From NCBI RefSeq assembly GCF_022378355.1, contig NZ_JAKMAJ010000017.1:1-64000 (forward strand): a DNA stretch of 64,000 nucleotides. Direction: 5' to 3'. Made by a program: the position numbers and the translations under genes. The notes under the pieces were generated by a model. That model saw only the letters and a program-made list of their open reading frames with translations, was not told where the DNA came from and did not search any database. Positions 9,655 through 34,532 of this stretch are shown here, one piece after another. Numbering within the stretch: position 1 is the stretch's first letter; each line of letters starts with the position of its first letter. This stretch comes from Brenneria bubanii (GTDB lineage Bacteria > Pseudomonadota > Gammaproteobacteria > Enterobacterales > Enterobacteriaceae).

Positions 9655-9678
9655 GGGGCTTTGCCCCCCAAATAAACC

Positions 9679-17053: not shown

Positions 17054-17086
17054 AGCGCCTCACATACCAATAAAGAGGTGGGAATA

Positions 17087-17107
17087 AAACAGGGGAAGCC
17101 CCTGTTT
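17087..17107 (-). terminator. Hairpin attenuator or terminator between eexN and virB6
   Basis: AAACAGGGG (17087-17095), loop AAG, CCCCTGTTT (17099-17107): a perfect 9-bp stem. On the minus strand it is followed by TATTCC after the terminal T run, so it could reduce read-through from eexN into virB6 and the distal VirB genes. Its strength is unknown. Confidence 0.65.
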
Positions 17108-17121
17108 TTATCGAGGGAATA

Positions 17122-17397
17122 TTACTCGGTAACGGATTTTCTTTTCTCGGCTTCCTGCTGAAACAAGGTTTCAAATTTTTCCTTGATGCCGGGTTTCCCT
17201 ATTTGCGCGAACATCAGGGCCGCTCGATGAGCAAACTCGCAGTTATCGCTCGCCTCGCCATCCTTGATGCATTGCGTATAGACCTCATAGGTCTCATCAG
17301 GATGTTGTTTATACCAGGCTTCGGATTTTGTCTCTTTACAGCCGGATAATGCGATAGCGCATGATACGGCGCATAATATGAATAAGGGTTTAACCAT
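17122..17397 (-). CDS. eexN: EexN-family entry-exclusion lipoprotein
   Basis: A 91-residue lipoprotein. I chose the ATG at 17397 because AAGGAG lies ten bases upstream; an upstream in-frame start at 17430 overlaps virB5. Lipobox ALSGC, then WYKQHPDETYEVYTQC and DNCEFAHRAALMFAQ, which is the EexN pattern of a WYK...HP segment, two cysteines and an N-C-x-x-A helix. EexN blocks redundant uptake of the same element by a cell that already carries it. It lies between virB5 and virB6, its usual place. Confidence 0.82.
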   Translation of the reverse strand: MVKPLFILCAVSCAIALSGCKETKSEAWYKQHPDETYEVYTQCIKDGEASDNCEFAHRAALMFAQIGKPGIKEKFETLFQQEAEKRKSVTE

Positions 17398-17407
17398 ATC
17401 TGACTCC

Positions 17408-18127
17408 TTATATATTATTGAGATCGGCAACCGGGGCGGTTAATTGCTGTTGCTCAAAGGCTTGCTGTTTTTGCCGCTCCAGCAGTTGTGTCCGCTGTTC
17501 CGCCCGCCTGACGGATATTTCCCACTGGCTGGTCAACGCGTTCAATTGTACGCTTCTGGCCGCCACGGCGTTAGCCAGGTCCTGCGACTCTTTCGAATCC
17601 TGCGCATTCGATATGCGGTCAGATAACGCGGCGATATCGTTGAGCGTGCCGGCGATCTTGTTTTCAACGTCGGACGTATTTTCTATCGCCACCGCCTGAT
17701 TCAGGATGATCTGTTTGCAACTCTCCAGATAACGCGGCGAGGAACTGGACTGATTACAGGTATCGAAAGATTGATATTTTCCATACAAGCGCTGAAGCTC
17801 GGAAGAATAGGCGCCGCCCTGATTGGTCAGCAGATCATCCAGTGAAACGCCGTTCTTGCGCAGAGCATCAATATCGCTTTTGAGGTTTTTCGCCTCGTTA
17901 AGGAATCCCTGAATATCTCGCACGCCCGTCGCCGTGGCTAATTGCCGCTTGTAGGCGTCAAGCTCGCTTTTATAGTGGGTGACGGTTTCCTGCCACTGCT
18001 GGAGTTTTTGCACCCACTGGTTAATGGATTCGGTATTCTGCACGCCGTCGAAAACCGGGATCCCGGCGCTGAACGCCGGAGTGGGGAGAAAGAGTGCTAA
18101 TGCCAGCACGGTGTTTCGGGTACGCAT
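17408..18127 (-). CDS. virB5: VirB5 minor pilus protein
   Basis: A 239-residue periplasmic protein with a signal peptide ending AFSAG and a long helical body with many Gln/Ala/Lys repeats (VQKLQQWQETVTHYKSEL). This helical hairpin is typical of VirB5/TraC, the pilus-tip adhesin. I use ATG 18127, which has GAGGTG six bases upstream; a GTG at 18136 is also in frame. The C-terminal region is Gln-rich (RQKQQAFEQQQL). Confidence 0.88.
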   Translation of the reverse strand: MRTRNTVLALALFLPTPAFSAGIPVFDGVQNTESINQWVQKLQQWQETVTHYKSELDAYKRQLATATGVRDIQGFLNEAKNLKSDIDALRKNGVSLDDLLTNQGGAYSSELQRLYGKYQSFDTCNQSSSSPRYLESCKQIILNQAVAIENTSDVENKIAGTLNDIAALSDRISNAQDSKESQDLANAVAARSVQLNALTSQWEISVRRAEQRTQLLERQKQQAFEQQQLTAPVADLNNI

Positions 18128-18139
18128 TGTTATCACCTC

Positions 18140-20887
18140 TCAGATAGCCATTTCAAGAAACTGCGCTTTCCATGCTTCAGGCTTCATGCCTTCCTGATAA
18201 AGGGCATCGAAGATTTTCAGGTTGTCTTCGCTCCCACTCAGCAGTTTGCTGACTTTCCCCAGTCCTGATAGGTCCATTTTCGCCATCGCCACGAACGGCC
18301 GGGTTTCACCGGCACGCAACGGCGTTTTCAGGATCACCATATAGCGCTCGCCCGGATCCAGATTTTTGACGATGTCATACACGCTTTCCGGTACTTTCAT
18401 TTTCTCCACGTAGTCCGCATGGCTGGCCTTTGGGTTGGCGAGAAAAATCTGTGTGCCGCACTGTTCGATGATTGCCGGGGCGATGGGATGCCTGACGATC
18501 TCGTCAGGCGATTGGGTGGCGGGAATGAAGATGCCGTTCAGCTTGCGAATGACCTTGAGCATATTGAGCGAGAACCGGGAGAATTCCACATCAGCCAGCC
18601 ACTTCCAAAACTCGTCCATAAACATCACCAGCCGGCGGCCGTCCAGCAGGCTGGTGACGCGGTACAGCAGGTAAAAGGTAATCGGCCCTCGGATATCGTC
18701 GTCATCCAGAAATTCCGTGCCGTCGATGCCGAAGTTATCGATATCGCTGATATCGAACGTATCCGCCTCGTTATCAAATACCCAGCCGAACTCGCCGCCC
18801 TGCGCCCACTGTTTCAGCCGGATGCGCAGCCCATTGACGCGGGCCTCCTGGGTCGGCGGCTCCGGCAGCACCTCCAGCAGCCGCGTGATGCCGTAACGGC
18901 GGTATTCCGGCGGATAGTCCAGCATGATGGTGTCCACGGCGGCGCTGATGCGCGCTTCGTCGCGCGGGTCGAGCGGTTTGCCGTTGCGGCGGCACAGCAT
19001 TCGCACCAGACGCTTGATAAAGTTGATGTTCCGCCGGGTCGGCGCCAGCGAAAACGGGTTGAACCCGGTGGGCTCGCCGGTACGGAGTCGAAAATAACGC
19101 CCGCCCATCTGGCGTATCGCCATCTCCGCCGCCCGGTCTTTGTCGAAATAAACGGTGGTCAACCGCTTGATGGTGGCCGAAGCGGCAAACGTCGCCGGGT
19201 TGCGGTATTTCTGCATCAGTTGTTGCATCACGGTCATCAGCATCGTTTTCCCCGAGCCGGTTTTCCCGATAATCGCCGTATTGCCCGGCGTTTTCTCGTT
19301 AAAGTCATCGCGTCCGGCCTGGCTGTCGTGCAGGTTCAGGTAATAACCGCCGCCGCCCGGCGATGTGAGGATAGCAATGGCTTCGCCCCAGGGATTGCCG
19401 CCGCGCTTGTGGGGATGGAAGTTGTGCAGGCTCGCCATATCCGCATAGTTCTGGCTGCTGACGGCCACCAGCCGCGGCCGCAAGGTATAGACGCCCGGCA
19501 GTTGCGCCAGATAGGCGGCGGGTAACGACAGGGTGGACAGGGTGGTCATAATGCCGAGGTCGGCGAAGGGCTGTGCCAGCGTTGTGGCGTCCTTCACCAC
19601 CTGGTCGGCGCTGGCGGATGAAACCAGCAGGGAGAAGTGGTATTTGCCGCACGACACATGCCCGGACTGGAGCAGGTCGCGCAGCACAATCAGCTCTTCG
19701 CGTTGCGACAGGGCGTCGTCATCGGCCGAGTTCAGCCGTTTTTCAGCCAACCGGATATGGTTCTGCGCTTCATCGCGCGCCATGCAGGTAAAGGACTGCG
19801 TCAGCACATACTCGCTTTCGGCGTACAGCAGTGCATCCAGTAAACCCGTGGTGGTTTCGGGCGAGTAGTCCTTGATTTCCAGACTGCGGAAGAAGCGGGA
19901 GCCGCCCACCGTCTGGCATTCGGCGGTATCGGTGGTAAAAAACACGTCCGCCGTGCCGAGTTGGTGGTAAAACGGCGCGCGCGTGACCGCCACGTTCTGC
20001 CATTGGCCGGTGAGCAGCCGGTGATAGAACGAAAGCTGCGAGGAGTACACCCGCCCGTTTGCTTCATAAACGCCCAGCGGCGTCGCCGTATAGCGGGATA
20101 AGGCGGCGTTCAATGACGCCCAGTGCTCAAGCATGGCCTTCAGGGCGATATCCAGCGCCGTCTGCCTTTTGCCGACCGGCTGCCTGCTCAGCGCCTTTTT
20201 CTCCAGCAGCGAGAACGGCGCAAAACAGATGGTGAAAAACAACCGGTGCCGCCAGAGCGGTTTGTCTTTGAGGGGCCGGTAGTACAGATCTGCGACCTCA
20301 TCGGCAAAGGGAATGCTCGATTGCGCCGCAAAGGCATCCTGGTAGGGTTCCCGGATACGGTGAATATAGAAAGTGACCGGCTGCCCTTCATACGACCGGA
20401 TCAGGTTATTCAGGTGGGTCGCCAGAAAAGTGAGATGATGTTCATCCTCGCATTCGAAAACGGTGCCGCCCAGCTCCCAGGTCGCCACCAAATCCCGGTG
20501 CCGGTTGCTGATGATGTGAGGGTGAATATGGGAGGAATACGGAATGTATTTATCCAGCGTGATGCGCGCGTTTAATTTCATCTTGTCGGTAAACTCCGCA
20601 ATATCGACGGCGTCATAGCGGTTCGCCAGGATGGCGTTGGCGCCAAAATAGCGGTTGGCGACCCATTGGCCGCGCGTTTTAAACGCCAGCCACAGCAGCC
20701 CGAAATAGTGGATGTCCTTACGGGCCCTGGCCTTCATCTCCATCCAGGCAGGAATAAGCAGCAAGACCAGGTAATAGCTGAGGTAAACCGCCAGCAGGAC
20801 GATAGCCCCGCTGACGATCACGAACGGTACGAGGGGAATGCCCATGATGGCGGCGGGGCGCGTCAGCGCCTTGTTCAGCGTGGTCAT
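18140..20887 (-). CDS. virB4: Fused VirB3-VirB4 protein (inner-membrane subunit plus ATPase)
   Basis: A 915-residue protein joining two normally separate subunits. Residues 1-95 are VirB3-like: a short basic N-terminus, a hydrophobic hairpin (IPLVPFVIVSGAIVLLAVYL and neighbouring segment) and MEMKARARKD. The remainder is VirB4, the large energising ATPase: an N-terminal conserved domain, Walker A GKTGSGKTML after about residue 530, Walker B LVMFMDEFWKWL and the downstream ATQSPDEI motif. Fused VirB3-4 is known in several VirB systems. A large open frame on the opposite strand across this gene is a high-GC shadow. Confidence 0.93.
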   Translation of the reverse strand: MTTLNKALTRPAAIMGIPLVPFVIVSGAIVLLAVYLSYYLVLLLIPAWMEMKARARKDIHYFGLLWLAFKTRGQWVANRYFGANAILANRYDAVDIAEFTDKMKLNARITLDKYIPYSSHIHPHIISNRHRDLVATWELGGTVFECEDEHHLTFLATHLNNLIRSYEGQPVTFYIHRIREPYQDAFAAQSSIPFADEVADLYYRPLKDKPLWRHRLFFTICFAPFSLLEKKALSRQPVGKRQTALDIALKAMLEHWASLNAALSRYTATPLGVYEANGRVYSSQLSFYHRLLTGQWQNVAVTRAPFYHQLGTADVFFTTDTAECQTVGGSRFFRSLEIKDYSPETTTGLLDALLYAESEYVLTQSFTCMARDEAQNHIRLAEKRLNSADDDALSQREELIVLRDLLQSGHVSCGKYHFSLLVSSASADQVVKDATTLAQPFADLGIMTTLSTLSLPAAYLAQLPGVYTLRPRLVAVSSQNYADMASLHNFHPHKRGGNPWGEAIAILTSPGGGGYYLNLHDSQAGRDDFNEKTPGNTAIIGKTGSGKTMLMTVMQQLMQKYRNPATFAASATIKRLTTVYFDKDRAAEMAIRQMGGRYFRLRTGEPTGFNPFSLAPTRRNINFIKRLVRMLCRRNGKPLDPRDEARISAAVDTIMLDYPPEYRRYGITRLLEVLPEPPTQEARVNGLRIRLKQWAQGGEFGWVFDNEADTFDISDIDNFGIDGTEFLDDDDIRGPITFYLLYRVTSLLDGRRLVMFMDEFWKWLADVEFSRFSLNMLKVIRKLNGIFIPATQSPDEIVRHPIAPAIIEQCGTQIFLANPKASHADYVEKMKVPESVYDIVKNLDPGERYMVILKTPLRAGETRPFVAMAKMDLSGLGKVSKLLSGSEDNLKIFDALYQEGMKPEAWKAQFLEMAI

Positions 20888-20896
20888 CGGTTCCTC

Positions 20897-21175
20897 CTAC
20901 GCGGCCCAGTAGGCGCCGAAGCCCGACGCGCCGACAATCAGGATGGCGCCGATAATGACGTTGCGCATGTCATGCAGACTCTTGCCGTCGAACAGTACCT
21001 TGTAGCCGATCCACATGGTCGCCAGCGTGATGGTGACGGCGGCCAGTCCCAGCAGGCCGGTGGAGGTGTTGCTCAGCGTCTCATTGGCTTTATTGAATCC
21101 GCCGTCGGCCGCCAGCGCTGGGGCGGACATTAATATGGAAGAGATGGCGGGCCAGAAATTACGTTTGCGCATCAT
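20897..21175 (-). CDS. virB2: VirB2 pilin
   Basis: A 92-residue prepilin: a long signal peptide (cleavage about ALA-ADGG near residue 23) and two hydrophobic helices (TGLLGLAAVTITLATMWIGY and NVIIGAILIVGASGFGAYW) joined by a short basic loop (DGKSLHDMR). This is the typical VirB2 hairpin that polymerises into the conjugative pilus. Its start touches the virB1 stop. Confidence 0.9.
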   Translation of the reverse strand: MMRKRNFWPAISSILMSAPALAADGGFNKANETLSNTSTGLLGLAAVTITLATMWIGYKVLFDGKSLHDMRNVIIGAILIVGASGFGAYWAA

Positions 21176-21840
21176 TAATTCTCCTCATTAGTCTCAGGGA
21201 CGGGTAAAGCGCCGCGCATAACGGCGTTCGGGTAGCGCACGGACGGTGACGCTGGCGTGGCGTTATCGGCCATGTCGCCGCGCAGGATGACGGCGGGGTA
21301 ATGGATTGCGGGTGTGGATTTTCCGGACGAAAGGTGTTGTTTATCTTCCCGCGTCGACGGGACGGCATAGCCGATACGCTGGACATAACTGGTGCGGTTA
21401 AAGGCGGCTTCCGGCCGCTGGCCGCTATCGAAATTGCCGGCGTAGTAGCAACTGAGCGCGCGTTGCAGGGAGCCGCCGCGCCGGTAGCAGTCGGTGAGGA
21501 TGCGCTCGAAGACCGACAGATTGATGCAGGGATCAAATAGCTCACGGGCGGTGACGCCATAGTGGCGGAAATTGCTGCTGGTGATTTGCATCAGGCCGAC
21601 CGAATAGCGGCGGCCCTGCGCGGCCAACCGCCTGACGATGCCGATGGCGTCCGCCTTGCTGGCGGGATAATGAGAAATCACCCCATGGCTGCCGGGCGCG
21701 CGCTGATGCTTCGGCACTATCTCCGCGATGGCGTAAGGGTGAAAACCGGATTCAACCCGCGCGACGTCGAGCGCGGTGGTCGGGTGAACGCTGGCGGCGC
21801 ATTGTATGGCCGCCGCCAGAAAGGCGGTGGTGGAAAGCAT
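21175..21840 (-). CDS. virB1: VirB1 lytic transglycosylase
   Basis: A 221-residue SLT-type murein hydrolase that opens the peptidoglycan for the channel. Catalytic Glu30 lies in DVARVESGFHPYAI; YSVGLMQITSSNFRHYG and LFDPCINLSVFERIL follow, then ALSCYYAGN. These are the GLMQI, N-x-x-x and YN-G-type motifs of family 1 lytic transglycosylases. A signal peptide is weak but present (residues 1-17). It is the first gene of the VirB operon and slightly overlaps virB2. Confidence 0.9.
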   Translation of the reverse strand: MLSTTAFLAAAIQCAASVHPTTALDVARVESGFHPYAIAEIVPKHQRAPGSHGVISHYPASKADAIGIVRRLAAQGRRYSVGLMQITSSNFRHYGVTARELFDPCINLSVFERILTDCYRRGGSLQRALSCYYAGNFDSGQRPEAAFNRTSYVQRIGYAVPSTREDKQHLSSGKSTPAIHYPAVILRGDMADNATPASPSVRYPNAVMRGALPVPETNEEN

Positions 21841-21898
21841 GGCGGCCTCGGAAAGGTAAAATGCAGGAGGGTAGCGACAGAAAGAAACGGGAAACGTA

Positions 21899-22153
21899 TT
21901 AACTGGCGGGAACGTCCTGCGCAGCGTTGTTATCTTCTCTGGGTTCGAGCAGCACCAGCTTGCCGGAGACGGCGATGCCAGGGGTCAGCACTACATTCAG
22001 ACCGGATTTGCCGTGATGGGCGAAGGCGGCGCCGACTTTGGTCCAGTAGGTGCTTTTTTCGCCCTGTGCATCGGGCTGACTTTCCTGGGTGACAAAGACG
22101 TGATAAAGGGGTTTTCGCGTAATTTTCCCTCTCATTAAAAGAGCGTTGAACAT
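21899..22153 (-). CDS. Conserved small ICE protein of unknown function
   Basis: 84 residues, soluble, with alternating beta-like stretches: KPLYHVFVTQES, STYWTKVGAAFAHHG, LNVVLTPGIAVSGKLVLLEP. An alternative ATG lies at 22135. The VGAAFAH...GLNVVL...G.LVL pattern resembles small proteins encoded near transfer genes in several ICEs and plasmids, but I cannot name a function. It sits immediately upstream of virB1 on the same strand, separated by 58 bases. Confidence 0.6.
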   Translation of the reverse strand: MFNALLMRGKITRKPLYHVFVTQESQPDAQGEKSTYWTKVGAAFAHHGKSGLNVVLTPGIAVSGKLVLLEPREDNNAAQDVPAS

Positions 22154-22560
22154 TGGTCACATCCCGATCCTGCATTCCGGTTTTAACGGGTCAGCGAGAA
22201 CATTCAGCGGCACCCTGAATTGTGGTTGTGTGACAGCCCGATCCCGATTGTTAAAGAGCGTATTCAGGCCATCCCGGCCCGGTGAAATAAACGTCCTGAA
22301 CATCGCCGGCAAATATCGGCGTGGTCAGGGTGCGCTATCTGATTCAGACGGGTAACAAGAAACTCAAACTGGAAAATAAAAGAAAAAGGAGGGGAAATTA
22401 TCTTGATGTGATTTTGAGTTTTATCTGGCAGGGAAGTGTTTTTTTGAAAGTCTGTGCGGTTTTTATTTTTTTTCGACACGCTTTCCAATAGTCAAAGTCA
22501 GGATATTTTTGCTGAAAGAAAATAAAAAACGTGCGGAACATCCTTGTTCTCCGTTCGTTT
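22154..22560. other. AT-rich spacer upstream of the VirB operon
   Basis: About 400 bases. A minus-strand frame of about 47 codons (start near 22541, MFRTFFIFFQQKYP) is Lys/Phe-rich and overlaps the end of the TraR-like gene; it is too weak to call. The stretch is a good place for the promoter of virB1-virB11. No strong hairpin was seen. Confidence 0.4.
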
Positions 22561-22770
22561 TTATCGCCTGCGGCGTTCAATTTTTGCCTGGCATTGTGTG
22601 CAGGTCGTCACGCCCGGCAACGTCTGCCGCCGTTTCTCGGGAATCGGCTTGCCGCAGAAACGACAATGCAAGAGTGATGGCGTGGGCGCCGGTTTGAAAC
22701 GGCTCTGTTCGATCATCTCTTCCAGCCGCTGCTCGTTAAATTCCTGGTCGCGATCAATCTCATCCGGCAT
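22561..22770 (-). CDS. TraR/DksA-type zinc-finger protein
   Basis: 69 residues with a four-cysteine zinc finger, CRFCGKPIPEKRR...CTQCQ (Cys36, Cys39, Cys57, Cys60), preceded by a helical segment (EIDRDQEFNEQRLEEMIEQ). This is the short TraR layout, which lacks the long DksA coiled coil. Plasmid TraR proteins bind RNA polymerase in the secondary channel and alter transcription independently of ppGpp. The start overlaps the preceding DUF2857 gene by 11 bases. Confidence 0.85.
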   Translation of the reverse strand: MPDEIDRDQEFNEQRLEEMIEQSRFKPAPTPSLLHCRFCGKPIPEKRRQTLPGVTTCTQCQAKIERRRR

Positions 22771-23344
22771 GCGACGCCCTCCAGTTCGACGCTTCCCGTT
22801 CGCAAAGCGAGATACGGTTCCAGACGCTGGTAAGCGAGGGCCCTGCCGTCGGCACGGACAGCGCCTCGGTAACCTGCATCATCGCCGTCAATGCCTCGGG
22901 CGATTCAAGGTTCTCTACGCGGCGTTTTTGCCATTGCCGCCAGATCTCGGCGTCGGTTTGTTCATCCGGGATGGGCGTCCGGCCTTGCGGAATAGCGACG
23001 CTCAGCAAGCGGCGGCGCACGCAGATTTCATTGGAGGTAAGGCCGAAATAGCGGTTAAGCAACGCAATCGAGCCGCCCAGTTGGATGGCCCGGTTAATCT
23101 GCTGCTGGCGCTGAACTTCCTGTCGCGACAGCGCCAACAGTTGGCGTAGCGCATCATGGCGAACGCTGACGGTCATAAACTGCGCCGACGCCCGGCTAAG
23201 GATAAACAGTTCGTCAAGGGACAGCTGATTAAGGGCATTCATTTCATCAAACGTAAACCCCAGCGCTTCGCAGTGACGGATATTGCCGTCCTTCAGCGCG
23301 TGCAGGGCATCGGTTAATACGGCGTAATTCAGTGACGGGATCAT
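22760..23344 (-). CDS. DUF2857-family ICE regulator (FlhC-like)
   Basis: 194 residues. The region ALNQLSLDELFILSRASAQ, then LLALSRQEVQRQQQINRAI and YFGLTSNEICVRRRLL, fits DUF2857, a family found between AlpA and ParB/TraR-type genes in ICEs. The final motif resembles the DNA-contacting part of FlhC/FlhD-type activators (Arg-Arg-x-Leu followed by a Gly-Arg segment), so an activator of the transfer operons is likely, but this is inference. It lies between alpA and the traR-like gene. Confidence 0.65.
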   Translation of the reverse strand: MIPSLNYAVLTDALHALKDGNIRHCEALGFTFDEMNALNQLSLDELFILSRASAQFMTVSVRHDALRQLLALSRQEVQRQQQINRAIQLGGSIALLNRYFGLTSNEICVRRRLLSVAIPQGRTPIPDEQTDAEIWRQWQKRRVENLESPEALTAMMQVTEALSVPTAGPSLTSVWNRISLCEREASNWRASHAG

Positions 23345-23360
23345 GATTCGGCTTCTCCCT

Positions 23361-23555
23361 TCAACGTGTTAAGCGGTTGGCTAATTTGAGGCTGATCCAT
23401 TCGTCCACTTCAGCTTCCAGCCAGGCCACGCTGGCCGGGCCAATCTTGATGGAACGGGGAAAGCGGCCGCTTTTCATATAGAGGTAGATTTGCGAGCGTT
23501 TCAGGCCGGTTTTTTCTTCAACCTGTTTCAGACGTAATAATTGATGAGATGTCAC
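23361..23555 (-). CDS. alpA: AlpA-family transcriptional regulator / excisionase-like
   Basis: 64 residues from a GTG start at 23555 that has AGGAG six bases upstream; the frame is open further 5' but without a good ribosome-binding site. The sequence LLRLKQVEEKTGLKRSQIY...GRFPRSIKIGPASVAWLEAEVDEWI is a MerR-like winged helix typical of AlpA, which activates integrase expression and excision in P4-like elements. It opens the regulatory block alpA-DUF2857-traR. Confidence 0.9.
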   Translation of the reverse strand: MTSHQLLRLKQVEEKTGLKRSQIYLYMKSGRFPRSIKIGPASVAWLEAEVDEWISLKLANRLTR

Positions 23556-23693
23556 GGTGTTCTCCTGTAGCAAAGAGGGGGTTTGCCCGGAGATGACACG
23601 ACAACACAAAGCCGCTGCGGGGATAAAGTCGATGAGCCCGTATTTCGGGTGGTAGAGTCCTTAATACGGACTTTCAGGTTTAAAAATGTAATT

Positions 23694-25065: not shown

Positions 25066-26238
25066 TTAGAAAATAGTGGGGTGTTTTCTAATTTTTACAA
25101 ACTGTATGATAGCGCCCACAGCTGCAATAACTCCTGCTGTAGTGGCAAGTACCCAGGGGGAGAAGTCCTGCAAGAGAAGAATTCCACCCATTGCTGCGCC
25201 AATTGCACTACCAAGATAGAGCGCTGACTCATTAAGGGCTACTGCTAAATTCCCATCCCCCTGTTGCTCACGAGCCTTAATTAGTTCGTTATTTTGCGGA
25301 ACTTGTAGTGCCCATCCTACAGCTCCCCAAACGGCGATCGGAATCATAACGAGCCATGTGCCGGAGGATGCAGTTGGAGGTAAAAGGAGTAACGAAATAG
25401 CTAAAATAATCATAATAACAAGGCTGAGTACTGGTCCTTGAAAGTGATCAACCAAGGGGCCAATCAAAAAGCTACCTACTACACCTCCAATCCCCCAAAC
25501 CCATAGATAGGGAGTAACGGAATGTATAGCGCCATACTCTGGATCTGAGAGCAATGGTGAAATGAAAGTGTACATACCAAGGCTGGCAACCGCGGCTAAT
25601 AAAGATACCAAAAGAATTATGACAACATGTATATCGGTAAGCAGCATCAGTTTATGCTTAAGTGATGTTATTTGAGCTTTAGGCAGCGCTGGAAGTTTCG
25701 TAATAAGCCCAAACAATGCAATTGCACCTAATAATGTCACTAACCATAAAGCTGCTGCCCATCCAAAGCGTTCTGCCAATAGGAGACTGAGAGGAACGCC
25801 AAGTACTGTTCCACTTGCCATGCCACCCATAATAACAGAAATAGCCTTTCCTCTTTGGTCTGGAGCTGAGAGTGCAACAGCTCCGGCAATACCCATAGCA
25901 AGATAGATACCAGCCCCTATTCCCGCAATTGCACGGAATATAAGCAATACAGTGAAATCAGTAGATAATGCACTGGCAGCATTGGCTACTACGAACAGAC
26001 CTAGGGCAAATAGTAGGCCACTGCGTTGCCGATGAGCTGGCAATAATGCAACAAAGACCGGTGAGCCGAGACCATAAGCAAGAGTGAAAGCTGTGACTAG
26101 TTGGGCTGCAATCGCGGCTGAAACCGAAAATGATGTTTGTATCATCGGTATTAGCCCGGCAGTAACATATGAAGCCATACCCAGAGCGAACGCCCCTAAG
26201 CCTATAAGATATACTGAGAATCGAGTATTTAAAGCCAT
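25066..26238 (-). CDS. MFS exporter of the metabolite cluster (DHA1-like)
   Basis: A 390-residue major facilitator with 12 hydrophobic segments. ATG 26238 (MALNTRFSVYLIG) has AGGA seven bases upstream; the frame is open further, but that part overlaps the AsnB-like gene. The pattern YVTAGLIPMIQTSF, then AYGLGSPVFVALL and RAIAGIGAGIYLAMG, places it with the AraJ/CmlA/YdhP-like drug and sugar efflux group. As last gene of the five-gene operon, the expected role is export of the product and self-protection. Confidence 0.85.
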   Translation of the reverse strand: MALNTRFSVYLIGLGAFALGMASYVTAGLIPMIQTSFSVSAAIAAQLVTAFTLAYGLGSPVFVALLPAHRQRSGLLFALGLFVVANAASALSTDFTVLLIFRAIAGIGAGIYLAMGIAGAVALSAPDQRGKAISVIMGGMASGTVLGVPLSLLLAERFGWAAALWLVTLLGAIALFGLITKLPALPKAQITSLKHKLMLLTDIHVVIILLVSLLAAVASLGMYTFISPLLSDPEYGAIHSVTPYLWVWGIGGVVGSFLIGPLVDHFQGPVLSLVIMIILAISLLLLPPTASSGTWLVMIPIAVWGAVGWALQVPQNNELIKAREQQGDGNLAVALNESALYLGSAIGAAMGGILLLQDFSPWVLATTAGVIAAVGAIIQFVKIRKHPTIF

Positions 26239-26296
26239 AAAATTTCCTAATCTCGAATTTAAAACAGGGGGGTAAATAATTCCCCCCTGATGGAAA

Positions 26297-28150
26297 TCAA
26301 AAAGAGAGCGAAACGTTGTAATCCTTAAGCCATGCATTTAAACCTATGGCTAATTCTATGCCCATACGGTCATACATGGGAGATAGGTCGCCAAGCGGCT
26401 TATCTAATGTCTGTTGAATTCGCTTACGATCTAATAAGGGTGTAACAGGTGAATTAGAGTCCTCTAAAATAGTGGTTAACGACTGACGTAAAGCCCTTTC
26501 GTATGCAGGGTGTTGGGTTGAGGGATATGGACTCTTAACTCGATTTGAAATACTTTCAGGCAGGATATCTTTAGTTGCAGCTCTTAGGATGCTTTTTTCA
26601 CGGCCATCAAACGCTTTCATTTCCCAGGGAATATTAAAAGCATATTCAACTAGCCGATGATCGCAAAACGGTACTCTAACTTCAAGACCAACAGCCATAC
26701 TCATTCTGTCCTTACGATCAAGCAATGTTTGAACAAATCTTGTCAGATTGACATAGCTCATTTGCCTCATGCGATGGTTGGTTTCATCCTCCCCAGGTAG
26801 CACAGGCGATTCTGCCAAGGCCTGGCTGTAGCTATCTTGCAAAAACTCATCCATTTTAAGTTTGTTCAATAAGCTCTGTGAAAAAAGAGTCTTTCCGTCG
26901 AAATATTTTCCAGTGACGGAGGTTAGCCATGGATAGGTCTTGGCCGCTATGGCCTCAGGATCATGGAACCAACGATATCCACCAAATACCTCATCTGCTG
27001 ATTCGCCTGAAAGTGCTACAGTTGAATGCTGTCTAATATTCTGAAAAAGCTGATAAAGAGAGGGCCACATATCTCCCCAAAAAGCGGGCGGCATATCTAA
27101 AGCATGCACTATTTTGGAACGTAATTCTGGATCAGCCATTGAGCTACTATCAATTATTATTTCCCCATGCTTAGAATTAATTAGCTCTACCAAATCTCGC
27201 ACAAAAGGAGCATCTGGTGTACCGCGGACCCCGTCGTCAGTGAATTCTGTACCATGATTGGCAAAATCAACAGAGAACGAACGAATATTCTCTTTTCCTG
27301 AGGCAAGAAGCTTTTTAGAAGCCAATGCCGTAATGATGGAGGAGTCCAGACCACCTGATAGAAGGCTGCATAACGGCACATCAGCAACTATATGACGATC
27401 GACGATGTCCTCAAGCAGATCACGGGTATGTTGTATTGTCTGCTCAAGTGTGTCTTGATGTTCATGAGCTTCAAGTTTCCAATAACGACTTTTAAAAAGT
27501 CCATCATGTGAAATTTTTATACATTCTCCAGGCAAAACCTCTCTCATACCTGAAAATATTGCCTGGGCGGGAGTTTTTACCATCTCTAATATTTCCCTCA
27601 TGCCATCCGCGGTCACTTTACGAGGTACAAGAGGGTTAGCTAGAAGGGCTTTTGGCTCAGAGCCAAAAATTATGCCATCTTTTGTTTCAAAATAATAAAG
27701 AGGTTTTACACCCATCCTGTCGCGTACAAGCAACAGTTCTTGTTTTAGCCGATCCCATATAGCGAATGCGTACATACCATTGAGTTTTTCAGGGAAATCT
27801 TTACCCCACTGAAGGTATGAATGTAATACTACCTCAGTATCGCTCCGCGTTTCGAAACGGTGGCCTAAGCTTTGAAGTTCTGTCCTTATCTCTTGAAAGT
27901 TATAAACTTCACCAGTATATGTGATTACTGCCGCAGCACGATATCCATCGTGATTGGCTATCATAGGCTGACGTCCTCCCTCAAGATCAATAACAGACAG
28001 CCTGCGATGCCCTAAGCCAACTGGCCCATCTATCCAAAGACCTTCAGCATCAGGACCACGCAAGGCCATAGTATCAGTCATTCGTTGCAACGTTTCCCGT
28101 TGCGATTCCAAATTTTGGCTATAAGAAAGCCATCCAGTCATTCCACACAT
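26297..28150 (-). CDS. AsnB-type glutamine-dependent amidotransferase of the cluster
   Basis: 617 residues with both halves of asparagine synthetase B. N-terminal class II glutaminase: Cys2 after Met1, then Arg50 (HRRLSVID), Asn84 (VYNF) and Asp104 (SDTE). C-terminal ATP-pyrophosphatase domain: SGGLDSS at 265-271, SFSVDFANHG and SGESADEVFGGY. All catalytic residues look intact, so ammonia from glutamine should be passed to an acyl-adenylate. In this operon the acceptor is probably the carboxylate of the assembled metabolite, giving a primary amide (as in primocarcin), rather than aspartate. That substrate is inference. GGAG lies nine bases before the ATG. Confidence 0.85.
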   Translation of the reverse strand: MCGMTGWLSYSQNLESQRETLQRMTDTMALRGPDAEGLWIDGPVGLGHRRLSVIDLEGGRQPMIANHDGYRAAAVITYTGEVYNFQEIRTELQSLGHRFETRSDTEVVLHSYLQWGKDFPEKLNGMYAFAIWDRLKQELLLVRDRMGVKPLYYFETKDGIIFGSEPKALLANPLVPRKVTADGMREILEMVKTPAQAIFSGMREVLPGECIKISHDGLFKSRYWKLEAHEHQDTLEQTIQHTRDLLEDIVDRHIVADVPLCSLLSGGLDSSIITALASKKLLASGKENIRSFSVDFANHGTEFTDDGVRGTPDAPFVRDLVELINSKHGEIIIDSSSMADPELRSKIVHALDMPPAFWGDMWPSLYQLFQNIRQHSTVALSGESADEVFGGYRWFHDPEAIAAKTYPWLTSVTGKYFDGKTLFSQSLLNKLKMDEFLQDSYSQALAESPVLPGEDETNHRMRQMSYVNLTRFVQTLLDRKDRMSMAVGLEVRVPFCDHRLVEYAFNIPWEMKAFDGREKSILRAATKDILPESISNRVKSPYPSTQHPAYERALRQSLTTILEDSNSPVTPLLDRKRIQQTLDKPLGDLSPMYDRMGIELAIGLNAWLKDYNVSLSF

Positions 28151-28174
28151 AATTTGACTCCAGGAATTAATTGT

Positions 28175-29245
28175 TTATCCGAGGCTTTCTAAGTCGGCAT
28201 TATGAGGTAGCAGGGCTCGTGCTTGACCTCGTATATAACGTGCTGGCAATGGTGCCAAAACTTTTTGACTGATTTCATCCAGCAATCTTTGCAGGTTGAA
28301 TGTTGCATTGAGATCTGCAAATGGTCGAATAGGAGGAGCGTTAGTTGAAACATATAAAATTACGTCTTTGCAGAACAGAGATAATTTTTCAATGGTCTCT
28401 AAACCGGGTTTTCTTGGCTCAGTTTTTAAATCCAACACAGTGATATTCTTACCATTTATATCCCGAGTCCAAATCTTGAGATGGTCACTGTCCCATTCAG
28501 GAGTGTCGTAAACAATTCGGGAGTGATATAATTTTCCAGATTGATTAATAAAGGTAAAATCTACGTTTCGTTGGCGTTTAATATTGACAAAGCTGCTATA
28601 ACCAGCAATTGGTGAATCACCCAGTTTCGCGGTGATTAAAACAGTATCAAGGATATATTCACCTGAAATTGAGAAATCAGATTTAATACCCAATGCTGCT
28701 TCTAGCTTTAATGGCATATCTTCTTCACAAATCCAATATATCAAATCCAATGCATGGATAATTTCACTGGTAACGCCACATGTAGGTCGATAATCATTAA
28801 TACGGTCCTTTCCCCAATAAAACGTCGCTCTGATTAGGGTCCATTGCTGTTTCTTGACTTCATTCCGTAGTGTTTGGGTCGTCTCTGAATAGCGCTCAAC
28901 TAGATTAAGTGCAAACCCTTTAATATTTTTAAGTGATTTATTCAAGTCGCTCCAGTCTTCACCAGGTACAGCTAATGGTTTTTCGCAAATAACAAAGCCT
29001 TTAAAAGAAGACAATTCTTTTAAAATTAAAATATGGCTATGATCATTCACGCTCACAACAACGATATCTGGGCAGAATTTTTTAATTGCTTCAGACACTG
29101 TATCAAAATACGGTAACTCTTCACTGCGCTTACGCCTTCCAACATAAGAAAATAACATAGGGATACCTAATTCTTTTCCTAAATTAACGAAAGAACGATG
29201 ATAACGCTGGCCTGCATAGCCCAACCCAATAATAAGTATTTTCAT
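28175..29245 (-). CDS. Gfo/Idh/MocA-family oxidoreductase of the cluster
   Basis: 356 residues. N-terminal Rossmann fold begins ILIIGLGYAGQRYH (GxGxxG at 7-12); the family motif CEKPLA is present with Glu88-Lys89-Pro90, followed by NLVERYSE. The C-terminal alpha/beta domain is recognisable (YWGKDRIND, EIIHALDLIYWI). The start overlaps the GNAT gene by 4 bases (ATGA). In the alaremycin pathway, as I recall it, a Gfo/Idh-type enzyme (AlmC) removes water from the N-acetylated hydroxy intermediate to give the exo-methylene group; that is the role I propose here. Confidence 0.8.
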   Translation of the reverse strand: MKILIIGLGYAGQRYHRSFVNLGKELGIPMLFSYVGRRKRSEELPYFDTVSEAIKKFCPDIVVVSVNDHSHILILKELSSFKGFVICEKPLAVPGEDWSDLNKSLKNIKGFALNLVERYSETTQTLRNEVKKQQWTLIRATFYWGKDRINDYRPTCGVTSEIIHALDLIYWICEEDMPLKLEAALGIKSDFSISGEYILDTVLITAKLGDSPIAGYSSFVNIKRQRNVDFTFINQSGKLYHSRIVYDTPEWDSDHLKIWTRDINGKNITVLDLKTEPRKPGLETIEKLSLFCKDVILYVSTNAPPIRPFADLNATFNLQRLLDEISQKVLAPLPARYIRGQARALLPHNADLESLG

Positions 29246-29751
29246 AACCTATTTCCTTCATAGATGAAAAATTTCTCAGGGCTAATAATGAACCCTAATT
29301 TTTCATAAAGGCTTTCAGCTTCTTTAGTTGACTCCAGAACAACTTTAGAAACTGCTCTCTCCTCAAACCAACTTAGTAGATCTTGCATAATGCGAAATGC
29401 GACTCCACGTCTTCGCCATTGAGGAAGAACAACCACAGACTGGACCCAACCGCACAATCCTGTGATGCAATCTGGAGAGGGGGGACGACTATCAACGATA
29501 CCTGTGGCACATCCTGCAAGTTGCCCTTCACATTCTGCGACAACTATTCTGATGTTTTCGTTGCTACCATGAAGATCATTTATCCAGTTGTTATAAGCCG
29601 TTTTCCAAAGATTACTTTCTTGGGCATTACGACTCGTATATATTGTGCTATGATTGCCATCCAGTAAAATAGCACGTAGCTTTATAAGACTTTGAATGTC
29701 CTCTATTCTAGCCACACGAATATTAATTTGATTATCAAATTTAATCATCAT
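29242..29751 (-). CDS. GNAT N-acetyltransferase of the cluster
   Basis: 169 residues covering one GNAT domain. The acetyl-CoA loop is QWRRRGVAFRIM (R-R-x-G-x-A, about 113-118), after the beta strand WVQSVVVLP; the C-terminal strand VVLESTKEAESLYEKLGF completes the fold. Start and stop are coupled to both neighbours: TAATG with the ALAS gene, ATGA with the oxidoreductase gene. Expected substrate is the amino group of the 5-amino-4-oxo acid made by the ALAS-like enzyme, giving an N-acetyl (or other N-acyl) derivative. Confidence 0.85.
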   Translation of the reverse strand: MMIKFDNQINIRVARIEDIQSLIKLRAILLDGNHSTIYTSRNAQESNLWKTAYNNWINDLHGSNENIRIVVAECEGQLAGCATGIVDSRPPSPDCITGLCGWVQSVVVLPQWRRRGVAFRIMQDLLSWFEERAVSKVVLESTKEAESLYEKLGFIISPEKFFIYEGNRL

Positions 29752-30983
29752 TATGCAGCCTGCCCTGTAGATGATTTATGTTTTAGAGGGATATCGAAAT
29801 GCTGAAATACTTCCAAAAGTGATTTAGCAAGATGGATAATTTGTTCTTCGCTGTGATTAGGTGTAGCGTTGACCCTAAATCGCTCAGTTCCTACAGCTAC
29901 TGAAGGATAATTAATAGGTTGCAAGTAAACCCCGTGTTCCTTCAATAAACGCTCTGCTGCGGCCTTGCATTTTACCGCGTCGCCCACAAGAACAGGTAAT
30001 ATATGAGTTGTAGAGCAAGGCATCACCGGAATGTTCAGTCGATCAAGTTCTGAACGCAAAAGCTTGGTGCGCTCATGAAGCATTTCTCGCTCTTGAGAGT
30101 GTTTTTTGAGATACTCAACGCTAGCTAAGCAACCAGCTGTGATTGCAGGAGGTAAGGATGTAGTGAAAATGAAACCAGTTGCGAATGAGCGTATAGCATC
30201 TATCATCCATTTTGATCCGGTAATATATCCCCCAATTACACCAATGGCTTTGGCCATTGTCCCCTGAATAATATCAATTTTATTTGCCACACCAACTTGT
30301 GCGGCAATTCCTTCCCCATTGGGGCCATACATACCAATAGCATGTACTTCATCAAGGTAAGTTAAAGCATTATGTTTTTTAGCCACTTCAACAATGGATT
30401 CAATAGGGGATATATCGCCATCCATTGAATAAATCGATTCAAAAATAACTATTTTTGGTCGCGTTAGTGGGTATTTAGAAAGAATTTTATCCAGATTATC
30501 TACGTCATTATGTTTAAAAATCTGCCGTTCTGTTTGAGTTGAACGTATGCCATTAATTATTGAAGCGTGATTATTTTCGTCACTAATTACCACGCAATCT
30601 GGTATTTGCCGCAATAGGCATTGCAGTGTTGCGTCATTGGAGCTAAAACCAGTTGGGAAAACTAAAGCTGCTTCCTTGCTATGCCATTCGGCAAGGCTGC
30701 TTTCTAATTTCCCATATAATCCATGTGTACCGCCAATATTCCGAGATCCTCCTGAGCCTGCACCGTAGGAATCGATAGCCTCATGCATGGCTTGTCGAAC
30801 AACGGGATGTTGAGATATTCCTAGATAATCATTACTGCACCACACTACAACAGGTCTGGACTCGTCTCCTTCCAGATGAGCTAGGGGATAGCTACCACAT
30901 ATACGATTTAGTGTAATAAAAGTACGATACTGACCTAAAGATTTAAGGCCGTTCAGCTTTTCATTCAATAAATTCTGGTACAT
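29751..30983 (-). CDS. 5-Aminolevulinate-synthase-type PLP enzyme, predicted serine/succinyl-CoA condensing (AlmA-like)
   Basis: 410 residues in the alpha-oxoamine synthase family, much closer to ALAS than to BioF, KBL or SPT: residue 20 Arg in GQYRTF, CSNDYLG, DENNHASIINGIRS, IFKHNDVDNL, DEVHAIGMYG and GTMAKAIG with the PLP lysine at 245; the C-terminus has LQPINYPSVAVGTERFRV, the ALAS succinyl-CoA region. The glycine-specificity position (Thr83 in Rhodobacter capsulatus ALAS, within GGTRN) is Ser80 here (GGSRN). Enterobacteria make ALA from glutamyl-tRNA, so this is not the heme enzyme. First gene of the operon, with AGGGGTGA upstream of the ATG. Confidence 0.88.
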   Translation of the reverse strand: MYQNLLNEKLNGLKSLGQYRTFITLNRICGSYPLAHLEGDESRPVVVWCSNDYLGISQHPVVRQAMHEAIDSYGAGSGGSRNIGGTHGLYGKLESSLAEWHSKEAALVFPTGFSSNDATLQCLLRQIPDCVVISDENNHASIINGIRSTQTERQIFKHNDVDNLDKILSKYPLTRPKIVIFESIYSMDGDISPIESIVEVAKKHNALTYLDEVHAIGMYGPNGEGIAAQVGVANKIDIIQGTMAKAIGVIGGYITGSKWMIDAIRSFATGFIFTTSLPPAITAGCLASVEYLKKHSQEREMLHERTKLLRSELDRLNIPVMPCSTTHILPVLVGDAVKCKAAAERLLKEHGVYLQPINYPSVAVGTERFRVNATPNHSEEQIIHLAKSLLEVFQHFDIPLKHKSSTGQAA

Positions 30984-31027
30984 TTTGTCACCCCTGTAAT
31001 TTTTACAAACACCGTGGATGCAAAGGT

Positions 31028-31058
31028 CGCTACGCTCTTAATAATTAGGGGCGTAGCG
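31028..31058. promoter_or_regulatory. Candidate operator between the metabolite operon and its regulator
   Basis: CGCTACGC (31028-31035) and GCGTAGCG (31051-31058) form a perfect 8-bp inverted repeat with a 15-base AT-rich centre (TCTTAATAATTAGGG) that could hold a promoter -10 element. It lies 45 bases upstream of the ALAS start and 64 upstream of the divergent regulator gene, the expected place for shared control. Confidence 0.55.
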
Positions 31059-31121
31059 GCATTGAATTGCATTGTGTCTTGGTTTTTTTACCATTACAAT
31101 CTAACTGTTTATGCTATTACT

Positions 31122-31997
31122 ATGAGTGATGTGATGAGAACAGTTCGCAATATGCAGAGGACACGTAAAGAGCTATCTGAATTTTTGCGTAGCCGCCGAG
31201 AACGTTTGGAGCCTGCTGATGTGGGGCTGACATCAACGGGGAGAAGACGCACTCCAGGCCTTCGCAGAGAGGAAGTGGCTGCGCTTGCAGGGGTGGGGCT
31301 GACATGGTACACCTGGTTAGAACAAGGCAGAGATATTGGCGTTTCAGCAGCATTTCTTGATAGTCTTTCACGTGTCTTAAAACTTGATGCCACCGAACGC
31401 CGTCATCTCTACCTTTTGACACAACAACGACCTCCCGTAGAGCCAGGTAAAACATGGTGCATTGTGCCTCCCCTTATCCATCGCCTTATGGGGAATTTAA
31501 AAGCCAGTCCGGCCTATGTGATAAATTTAAGATGGGATGTCATTGCATGGAATATGGCTGCTGATCGTGTCTTTCATTTCTCAGAATATGCGCCAGAACG
31601 CAGGAATCTTCTCTGGATGATCTTTACTGACCAGCCTACACGTATGTTGTTCGACCCTTGGGAAGAGCAAGCTCATCAGTTAATTTCACATTTCCGTAGA
31701 GACTTTGTTAGAGCAACGCAAGCTGCTGATATATCTGAATTAATTAAAGATCTTGAAAATATTGATCCAGATTTCAAAACATGGTGGCATGAGCAGGATA
31801 TTCATGGCCCTTACTATGAAAAACGACAGTTAAATGTTGAAGGAGTAGGTTATGTTTCTTTCGAACATACCATGCTGACAATCGATCAGGACAGACATTT
31901 AAGGCTAGTATATTACGCTGCCATAGAGGGGAGTGATACTGGCTTGAAGTTTGAAAAATGGGTGACCTCAGATCCCGAGAAAACCGTTAGAAATTAA
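31122..31997 (+). CDS. MmyB-like XRE transcriptional regulator
   Basis: 291 residues from ATG 31122; an earlier in-frame start (31014) adds a hydrophobic stretch that is unlikely to be translated. Residues 10-85 hold an XRE helix-turn-helix (ELSEFLRSRRERLEP, RRTPGLRREEVAALAGVGLTWYTWLEQGR). The C-terminal part (YVINLRWDVIAWNMAADRVF, LLWMIFTD) is the MmyB ligand-binding domain, a PAS-like fold that binds lipid-like or small ligands. It is transcribed divergently from the five-gene operon and is the obvious local regulator, probably via the inverted repeat between them. Confidence 0.85.
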   Translation: MSDVMRTVRNMQRTRKELSEFLRSRRERLEPADVGLTSTGRRRTPGLRREEVAALAGVGLTWYTWLEQGRDIGVSAAFLDSLSRVLKLDATERRHLYLLTQQRPPVEPGKTWCIVPPLIHRLMGNLKASPAYVINLRWDVIAWNMAADRVFHFSEYAPERRNLLWMIFTDQPTRMLFDPWEEQAHQLISHFRRDFVRATQAADISELIKDLENIDPDFKTWWHEQDIHGPYYEKRQLNVEGVGYVSFEHTMLTIDQDRHLRLVYYAAIEGSDTGLKFEKWVTSDPEKTVRN

Positions 31998-33031: not shown

Positions 33032-34294
33032 TCAGCCTATTATCACCCGCTTATCTAATATATATGGGGGGACGTACTCTTTCCGGCATACATCCAGATA
33101 ATCCGACCACCACTGCATCATCGCTTTGCGGGCTTCAAGATGGGCGGCTTTGTGGATATAGGCCGCCCGTACGCTGTTGCGCTCCTGATGACTCATCTGG
33201 CGTTCAACCGCATCCTGCGACCACTGGCCGGATTCCATCAAGGCGCTACAGGCCATCGCCCGGAATCCGTGGCCGCAGACATCCGTTTTGGTATCATACC
33301 CCATCAGACGAAGCGCCTTGTTGACGGTGTTTTCGCACATGGGTTTATACGGATTATGGTTGCCAGGGAATACCAGTTCCAGATGGCCTGAAATCGCTTT
33401 GATTTGCTTCAGAATGTCGATGGCTTGCCGGGACAGCGGCACGATATGCGGCGTGCGCATTTTCGCGCCGCGCCCGGAGTAGCGAACGCCGGCAATCGCG
33501 TCGCGGGTGGCGGGAATGGTCCAGATTCTATTTTTGAAATCTATCTCGCGCCAGCGAGCGAAGCGCAGTTCGCTGGAACGGATAAACAGGTGCAGGGTGA
33601 GCAGTACCGCAAGCCGGGTCAGTTCCCGACCTTGCTGATAGTTTTCAATGCGTTCCAGCAGCTCAGGCAGACGCTCCAGCGGCAGAGCCGGATAGTGGCG
33701 TCTAACCGGCGGAGCCGTTACGCCAACTAAGTTCAGCGCCGGGTTGTTTTCAATCCATCCTTGCTGAACCGCGTAACGCATAATATTGCACAGATGCTGC
33801 CGTGCGCGGGAGGCCACCTCTAGCAAACCTTTTTCCTCAATACCTTTCAGAAGGGCAGTGAAGTGTCGGGTTTTCAGTTCCGTTATCGGCTGATTACCGA
33901 TCGCCGGAAAAACATGATTGTTCAGGCTGGCAAGCAAGCGAGCGGCATGGTTCTCCGACCAGGTTCTGTTGCTTTTATGCCAGCTCAGCGCAACGGTCTT
34001 GAAACTCTTTGCTGGTGAACGCGCTGCCTTTTCAGCGGCTCGTTGCTGCGCCGGGTTGATATTCTGCACCAGTAGTTTGCGGAGTACATCACGTTTCTGT
34101 CGTGCTTCCGACAAACTGATTAACGGATAGGCACCCAGCGCTATGCGGGTTTCTTTGCCAGCGAAATAGTACCTGAAGTACCAGAGACGTGAACCAGTAG
34201 GTTTAACGTGGAGATATAGACCGTGAGAATCGGATAGTTTTATGGGGGTAACGGGAAGTTTTAAGTTGCGGATTTTCGTGTCGTTTAGGGACAT
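33032..34294 (-). CDS. int: P4-type tyrosine recombinase (ICE integrase)
   Basis: 420 residues: the N-terminal DUF4102 arm-binding domain (IKLSDSHGLYLHVKPTGSRL, ALGAYPLISLSEARQKR), a core-binding domain (about 100-190) and the catalytic domain with Arg239 (IRSSELR), His342 and Arg345 (HGFRA), His369 and Tyr379 (AAYIH). It sits 162 bases from the 3' end of tRNA-Asn, which is the usual position and target of this integrase type. It should catalyse integration and excision of the whole element. All key residues are present. Confidence 0.95.
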   Translation of the reverse strand: MSLNDTKIRNLKLPVTPIKLSDSHGLYLHVKPTGSRLWYFRYYFAGKETRIALGAYPLISLSEARQKRDVLRKLLVQNINPAQQRAAEKAARSPAKSFKTVALSWHKSNRTWSENHAARLLASLNNHVFPAIGNQPITELKTRHFTALLKGIEEKGLLEVASRARQHLCNIMRYAVQQGWIENNPALNLVGVTAPPVRRHYPALPLERLPELLERIENYQQGRELTRLAVLLTLHLFIRSSELRFARWREIDFKNRIWTIPATRDAIAGVRYSGRGAKMRTPHIVPLSRQAIDILKQIKAISGHLELVFPGNHNPYKPMCENTVNKALRLMGYDTKTDVCGHGFRAMACSALMESGQWSQDAVERQMSHQERNSVRAAYIHKAAHLEARKAMMQWWSDYLDVCRKEYVPPYILDKRVIIG

Positions 34295-34456: not shown

Positions 34457-34532
34457 TGGCTCCCCTGACTGGACTCGAACCAGTGACATACGGATTAACA
34501 GTCCGCCGTTCTACCGACTGAACTACAGAGGA
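34457..34532 (-). tRNA. tRNA-Asn (GTT), integration site of the ICE
   Basis: 76 bases including the encoded CCA. The minus strand reads TCCTCTGTAGTTCAGTCGG..., with anticodon GTT in GGACTGTTAATCC, the T-loop GGTTCGAGTCC and the acceptor end CAGGGGAGCCA. The acceptor stem has a T-G wobble at pair 4 because the 3' strand carries GGGG where, from memory, the common enterobacterial tRNA-Asn has GAGG. The integrase gene lies directly beyond the 3' end, so this 3' part was probably supplied by the element at insertion. Confidence 0.95.

Follow-up and report, generated by a model that had tools for sequence, protein, structure and literature searches.

The stretch examined here, called the window throughout, comprises 64,000 nucleotides from Brenneria bubanii (bases 1-64000 of a 127,856-base contig, NZ_JAKMAJ010000017.1, in a genome of 4.89 Mb). 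It contains a five-gene operon with a divergent regulator, which we read as encoding an antimetabolite pathway of the alaremycin type, extended by an amidation step and carried as cargo of an integrative and conjugative element (ICE) resembling ICEKp; we give this reading a probability of about 0.6. Alaremycin is 5-acetamido-4-oxo-5-hexenoate, a mimic of 5-aminolevulinate (ALA), and primocarcin is its amide. We are fairly confident that the product is an N-acylated compound of the ALA type, and put the chances that it is specifically an amide at about even. The initial annotation had proposed a mobile operon of the alaremycin or primocarcin type. Its claims of an operon on an ICE and of one candidate enzyme for each step held up well, and the analysis adds that the ALA synthase (ALAS) is distinct from the haem type and that the AsnB-like enzyme has a biosynthetic kinship; the single pointer on to primocarcin is the additional AsnB-like gene. 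The alaremycin-type reading is thus the one best supported by the sequences, and primocarcin is a plausible extension of it.

The six open reading frames (ORFs), five in the operon and one for the regulator, are present without any internal stop, and comparison with Pfam and NCBIfam profiles bore out the five tightly packed minus-strand genes, the divergent MmyB-type regulator and the families first named. The operon starts with an ALAS-like pyridoxal phosphate enzyme of 410 amino acids (29751..30983, minus strand), which scores 553.5 bits with TIGR01821 (cut-off 338.55). It is followed on the same strand by a GNAT N-acyltransferase of 169 amino acids (29242..29751; Acetyltransf_1 over the Pfam cut-off), a Gfo/Idh/MocA-type protein of 356 amino acids (28175..29245; GFO_IDH_MocA, PF01408, over the Pfam cut-off), an AsnB-like glutamine-dependent amidotransferase of 617 amino acids (26297..28150; TIGR01536, 504.1 bits, cut-off 267.1), and a predicted exporter of the major facilitator superfamily, MFS (25066..26238; MFS_1 over the Pfam cut-off). 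The regulator, a MmyB-like protein with a helix-turn-helix and a ligand-binding domain, lies on the plus strand at 31122..31997 (MLTR_LBD and HTH_31 over their Pfam cut-offs). For the exporter and the regulator, the longest ORFs are larger (25066-26337, and from 31014, respectively), and a by-eye comparison with relatives indicates that the true starts are probably the later ones, at 26238 and 31122. The overlapping codons noticed at the outset are indeed there: ALAS and GNAT genes overlap by 1 base, GNAT and Gfo genes by 4 bases, and the gap between the Gfo and AsnB genes is 24 bases. The G+C content of the operon and regulator genes (0.38-0.45) is below that of the transfer genes (0.56) and of the chromosome on the right (0.54), which suggests a foreign origin; it is 0.48 in window 1-10000.

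We infer from sequence every chemical step, substrate, product and target of the following scheme. The ALAS-like enzyme would condense succinyl-CoA with L-serine, and not glycine, losing CO2 to give 5-amino-6-hydroxy-4-oxohexanoate; the GNAT would acetylate the amine of this aminoketone; the Gfo/Idh/MocA protein would then remove water to yield 5-acetamido-4-oxo-5-hexenoate, i.e., alaremycin; and the AsnB-like enzyme, using glutamine and ATP, would turn the carboxylate into an amide, producing primocarcin or a close analogue. The MFS protein would ensure both product export and self-protection, under the control of the divergent ligand-binding regulator, and the product would hit competitors as a 5-aminolevulinate mimic at porphobilinogen synthase. 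Alaremycin is described as displacing ALA in this enzyme (PMC12670364). The present operon unites the same kinds of genes, an ALAS homologue, a GNAT, a Gfo/Idh/MocA protein and an MFS exporter, as the Streptomyces alm set, and differs from it by its location on an enterobacterial ICE, its added AsnB-like amidotransferase and its MmyB-like regulator, a likeness that is one of gene lists and not of sequences. Reportedly, the work of Okui et al. (2025, ACS Bio Med Chem Au) on alaremycin biosynthesis in Streptomyces sp. A012304 involves an ALAS homologue, an N-acetyltransferase, an oxidoreductase and an exporter. As for primocarcin, what the operon offers is an enzyme of an amide-forming type, encoded next to genes resembling those for alaremycin; the word itself was not found in the open-licence literature searched. 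In this same literature, in which matching titles were covered in part, we recognised no paper describing such clusters, and one paper on the high-pathogenicity island (HPI) and one on Pectobacterium yielded no aminolevulinate or asparagine synthase passage on such cargo.

The operon is not a chance assembly, since the same six-gene order recurs in 15 loci and since the ratio of nonsynonymous to synonymous substitutions per site (dN/dS) is about 0.05-0.15 relative to the copy found in E. coli (NZ_LR536430, locus L009). This ratio was obtained for five genes (MFS left out) and for this one pair of copies. It derives from dN and dS values of 0.041 and 0.84 for AsnB, 0.050 and 1.11 for the regulator, 0.062 and 0.93 for ALAS, 0.143 and 0.95 for Gfo, and 0.18 and 1.18 for GNAT, the last two evolving faster than the other operon genes. 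With a low dN/dS at nearly saturated synonymous sites (dS 0.84-1.18), the operon has evidently been maintained by purifying selection across a long separation of the two copies.

Residue 83 of the ALAS (Rhodobacter capsulatus numbering) is a Ser in 25 out of 25 loci of the operon type (22 loci plus the window and two plasmid loci, L012 and L013), whereas it is a Thr in R. capsulatus and in all 27 of the other well-matching ALASs (L039-L065); these 27 are the next-best matches with fetched DNA of a phylum search in which 151 of 398 genomes matched, the residue having been read in part of these. In a maximum-likelihood tree, rooted at its midpoint only, a branch with a support of 100/100 separates 23 operon-type ALASs, of gammaproteobacterial and Bacillota origin, from the 27 others and the Streptomyces clavuligerus enzyme L035. 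Moreover, no GNAT, Gfo or AsnB relative (E 1e-3) was found beside any of these 27 ALASs in the flanking DNA (at most 1.5 kb per side), and the same neighbour search did find GNAT and Gfo at L037 and L038. By Ser83 and by its position in the tree, the window ALAS is thus set apart at the sequence level from the haem-type enzymes, and these two traits, together with the lack of GNAT and Gfo neighbours at the 27 other ALASs, are what support the alaremycin-type pathway. Thr83 is said to direct amino-acid specificity in ALAS (PMC4525017). A gatekeeper residue, which we have taken to be equivalent to residue 83, differs between related enzymes according to PMC11906848: ALAS has Thr there, KBL has Val, and both AONS and serine palmitoyltransferase have Ser. 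The relatives of the window ALAS are annotated hemA. Certain actinomycete hemA loci share their neighbourhood with Geobacillus thermoglucosidasius, the species of locus L014, and, according to PMC4525017, these actinomycete genes have neither cyclizing-type marks nor a conserved context. On the plasmids of Priestia megaterium (L012) and Macrococcoides canis (L013), the Ser83-type ALAS lies close to DMT-family transporter genes, perhaps for a different product; neither GNAT nor Gfo was found nearby, nor any Gfo in either whole plasmid record.

The tailoring enzymes keep the motifs of their families. The AsnB-like protein has the Met-Cys-Gly glutaminase end at its N-terminus and SGGLDSS at residue 265, and its nearest solved chain is 7ylz (562.8 bits), E. 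coli AsnB (1ct9) reaching 151.2 bits; judged by sequence, E. coli AsnB is a more distant relative of it than the amidotransferases of natural-product pathways are. The chain 7YLZ is TsnB9, the trichostatin hydroxyamidotransferase (PMC13122635). The window enzyme has the same glutaminase and SGGLDSS synthase domains as TsnB9, PhzH and Dip5, the last two compared by description only. PhzH, an asparagine-synthetase homologue, converts a phenazine carboxylate into the carboxamide (PMC6060551). Since the amidation of dipyrimicins is said to weaken their antibacterial activity (PMC13122635), one may guess that amidation protects the producer. Plasmid relatives of this AsnB occur in a phenazine-type cluster (L032), near a nonribosomal peptide synthetase gene (L031) and in an acyl carrier protein/AfsA-type set (L016); the latter, from a Klebsiella michiganensis plasmid, had been considered as a related cluster and was discarded, its surroundings being unrelated. 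In an alignment of 12 proteins, the Gfo protein keeps GxGxxG (GLGYAG) and EKP (CEKP), and the block NDYRPTxGVxSExIHxLD is near-invariant, the staphylococcal copy included; the long branches of the Gfo tree may join falsely, and its branching order was not used. A GNAT gene is found in 15/15 loci with AsnB and in 7 of the 8 loci that lack it.

Several points weigh against the alaremycin-type pathway. Ser83 alone is no proof of serine as the substrate, since it is known in glycine-using cyclizing ALASs, of which it is presented as a hallmark in PMC4525017; there, the cyclizing markers are S83, L/V149, T231 and S365. The window enzyme (Ser83, Ile149, Ala231, Ser365) also has Ser365, as do 9 of the 14 operon-type ALASs read at that position, and Ser83 occurs in L035 (Ser83, Leu149, Ala231, Ser365), which stands beside an AMP-binding gene and is presumably a cyclizing ALAS. 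As regards tailoring, the AsnB-like enzyme could, by analogy with TsnB9, produce a hydroxamate, or it could use another carboxylate, and a Gfo/Idh/MocA protein would be an unusual dehydratase, as the family suggests redox chemistry. Some of these points return in an alternative that we think unlikely, namely that the pathway begins in the same way and ends in another ALA mimic, neither alaremycin nor primocarcin, made with L-alanine (the amino acid used by AONS) or another amino acid, with another acyl group, or as a hydroxamate. Between the window and E. coli copies, identity is 69% for GNAT and 78% for Gfo versus 88% for ALAS and 92% for AsnB, a pattern to be expected of variable tailoring; among solved structures, the closest relative of the AsnB is a hydroxyamidotransferase; and the gatekeeper Ser is also that of AONS (PMC11906848). 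However, alaremycin followed by its amide is the simplest reading of the steps, and the GNAT and Gfo genes, with dN/dS near 0.15, are under purifying selection.

The cyclizing markers Ser83 and Ser365 would also suit a pathway of the C5N (2-amino-3-hydroxycyclopentenone) type, all the more as L035 has Ser83, Ser365 and Ala231 in common with the window enzyme. We nevertheless hold it to be very improbable: in C5N operons, the ALAS is accompanied by genes for an aminolevulinate ligase and for an amide synthase (PMC4525017), and no AMP-binding ligase was detected among the window operon proteins with the Pfam and NCBIfam profiles. This lack of ligase and amide synthase probably weighs against a cyclizing enzyme better than the residues do. 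The window ALAS keeps Ile149 where L035 has Leu, and the tree groups L035 with the 27 other ALASs, on a long branch that makes its placement unsure; position 231, whose mapping is insecure (Asp in the published account, Glu in R. capsulatus in the numbering used), is Ala in both enzymes and does not separate them. An auxiliary haem-supply operon, in which the ALAS would make 5-aminolevulinate from glycine, is the least probable alternative of all. It would agree with a score far over the cut-off of the haem-ALAS model and with the hemA annotation of relatives, but not with Ser83 in place of Thr83, the separate tree position and the accompanying GNAT, Gfo and exporter genes. Furthermore, Enterobacterales make ALA by the C5 route, and the window ALAS is the sole one over the cut-off in the host genome. 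On the residue signature, the neighbours and the tree, we set both the C5N and the haem-supply explanations aside with small odds. Finally, the operon might be catabolic or confer resistance, modifying and expelling an ALA-like compound instead of making one. This improbable explanation draws on the commonness of the regulator family, its frequent association with a divergent MFS gene and the existence of the exporter and regulator without the other genes on an Enterobacter plasmid (all detailed below); it accounts for these two genes, but not for a condensing ALAS joined to GNAT, Gfo and AsnB.

The alaremycin-type operon is, by its gene context, cargo of an ICEKp-like ICE. The initial annotation had placed it on a conjugative element, and the integrase, tRNA-Asn, VirB, MobC and coupling-protein genes are all in the window. 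The tyrosine integrase of the ICE (33032..34294, minus strand; Phage_integrase, Arm-DNA-bind_3) is 79% identical to that of an element in E. coli LR-33; the tRNA-Asn gene that serves as integration site lies at 34457..34532 (minus strand), with the core GGCTCCCCTGACTGG at 34458; and the conjugation module, with MobC, coupling protein, VirB11 to VirB1, DUF2857 and AlpA, extends over 6605..23609 on the minus strand (Pfam and NCBIfam). From right to left, the order is tRNA-Asn, integrase, truncated integrase, regulator and operon, a 315-amino-acid protein, AlpA and DUF2857, then the VirB genes, the coupling protein, MobC, ArdC and variable genes. No gene named MobB was identified among the window transfer genes. 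The far attachment site of the ICE was not found, the contig beginning at window base 1; the core GGCTCCCCTGACTGG has three matches in the genome, one at tRNA-Asn and two on contig C8, where ICEKp has 17-bp direct repeats at both ends. To the right of the ICE, the chromosome carries a biotin operon about 76% identical to that of E. coli (best match, covering 15% of an 18-kb query).

In ICEKp, according to PMC6202445, the yersiniabactin locus (ybt) lies beside the integrase, followed by the transfer module, an antirestriction gene and variable cargo; ICEs of the ICEKp/HPI type carry yersiniabactin or colibactin (PMC6202445 and PMC8461471). The window element has the same traits, i.e., an integrase at tRNA-Asn, a virB secretion system, MobC, an antirestriction gene and variable genes, and its operon occupies, between integrase and transfer module, the slot of ybt. 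It differs in that the cargo is a five-gene biosynthetic operon and that no yersiniabactin locus lies beside the integrase. This likeness to ICEKp is one of layout, the sequence comparison having been made with the E. coli LR-33 element, which has the same backbone at tRNA-Asn (VirB1 to MobC, 68-85% per protein) and carries leuCD and others in the slot of the operon. In locus L025 (genome G236, of another enterobacterial genus), an AsnB-less cassette adjoins the same 315-amino-acid protein, AlpA and DUF2857 (62-80%) as well as VirB1, 2 and 3-4 (47-60%), on an 11-kb contig in which the integrase end is off the contig; related cargo therefore seems to have entered this ICE slot more than once.

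Other features of the element deserve mention. A truncated second integrase (32012-32665) adjoins the operon, and over 300 bases (32186-32485) it matches the intact integrase gene with 88% identity, a possible sign of a second integration or of recombination. A Peptidase S66 gene (10028-11065), of the LD-carboxypeptidase family, which includes microcin C immunity proteins, lies in the transfer region at about the place where E. coli LR-33 has an insertion sequence (IS) element. The variable genes past ArdC (1779-5410) encode a DUF7380/DUF4209 protein and a DUF4238 protein.

The 15 AsnB-type loci, each with the six genes in the same order, are those of the window, of E. coli NZ_LR536430, of another enterobacterial genus (L028 in genome G373, between nhaA-like and dnaJ-like genes) and 12 copies in a genus of another gammaproteobacterial family (L066, L067, L116-L125; 11 of the 46 genomes searched). 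One genome of the collection, G1427, has two such operons (L118 and L119), on two contigs and in different surroundings. Intactness was examined for part of the 14 other operons: in E. coli the MFS gene is truncated beside an IS110 element, in L124 the match to AsnB is split in two and that to the regulator contains two stops, and in L121 the regulator match is likewise split in two. The E. coli ALAS also has an Arg in place of the His of its DEVHA motif, and that copy is possibly inactive. The AsnB-less relatives comprise, in enterobacteria, L025 (ALAS in two frames), L026 (G184), L027 (G282), L029 (G350, broken) and a Rahnella plasmid (L011), and, beyond them, a 1.7-Mb Paenibacillus contig (L002), a Parageobacillus plasmid (L014) and L015. 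The latter, a mobilizable plasmid of 9,275 bases from Staphylococcus capitis DSM 20326, carries a minimal cassette of ALAS (Ser83), GNAT and Gfo, and its MFS gene is in two pieces at opposite ends of the record. The regulator is present in 15/15 AsnB-type loci; the 8 AsnB-less loci yielded no regulator gene and no AsnB gene within the stretches examined.

The Gfo protein is rare: it was found in 6/392 genomes of the family of the host (its own included), in 1/295 of its order (its own only, in a sample overlapping that of the family), in 2/10 of its genus (its own included), in 1/398 Bacilli genomes (the Paenibacillus used as search centre) and in 6 of 72,556 plasmid records, none of the six being actinobacterial. 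A near-match search found the operon DNA in 1/5,426 E. coli genomes, and the search of viral contigs for the Gfo protein gave two pattern matches and no relative. Locus L026 lies among genes of a different class of ICE (TIGR03745, TIGR03750, TIGR03749, TIGR03752 and TraD), and L066 beside IncP-type TraG, ParA and a RlxS-like relaxase (618.5 bits, under the model cut-off of 850); L119, L121, L122 and L125 are located elsewhere, without these conjugation markers. When the plasmids named above are counted in, three or more types of conjugative machinery appear to carry the cassette, and we count the window operon among a broader group of ALAS-GNAT-Gfo-MFS cassettes, borne by mobile elements of several sorts.

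The window MFS protein is 67-72% identical to those of 13 AsnB-type loci and 86% identical to the truncated E. coli one (94% over 100 amino acids). On an Enterobacter ludwigii plasmid (NZ_CP116348, L010), an orphan pair encodes an MFS protein and a regulator 77% and 70% identical to those of the window; this pair lies among ICE-type genes, with no biosynthetic genes nearby, and is a possible travelling resistance pair. The regulator family was found in 40 out of 382 genomes of the family of the host, and a divergent MFS-type ORF was found at 19 of the 30 regulator-relative loci fetched, the window included (12 by a weak similarity of 20-27% to the window MFS, and 7/7 of those tested by Pfam). 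Since this family is common and often stands beside a divergent MFS gene, the regulator appears to be an efflux regulator that the operon has taken over. Just upstream of its gene, a six-locus alignment revealed the stretch TTACAATCTAACTGTTTATGCTATTAC (31094..31127, plus strand), a candidate operator or promoter; used as a search string, without a chance control, it was found in 13/15 AsnB-type loci (not L116 and L117) and in the orphan pair.

A broader picture, rather doubtful as a whole, would be that of a mobile class of haem-antimetabolite cassettes, serving as weapons on unrelated conjugative elements that range from plasmids of staphylococci and Bacillaceae to ICEs of enterobacteria. Amidation by the AsnB-like enzyme would then protect the producer, the amide having no carboxylate to be recognised by porphobilinogen synthase, and would also yield a molecule without charge, able to enter rivals and to be reactivated once inside. 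The regulator-exporter pair would also travel alone as a resistance unit. To our knowledge, Enterobacterales are not counted among the makers of ALA-mimic antibiotics. If the alaremycin-type pathway is true, these five genes would form an unusually compact antibiotic pathway, aimed at the essential porphobilinogen synthase step and small enough for expression in laboratory strains. The occurrence of the cassette core on several kinds of conjugative elements and plasmids suggests a selection for mobile carriage, and Ser83 offers a sequence lead that may separate antibiotic-type from haem-type ALAS genes, both of which are now annotated hemA.

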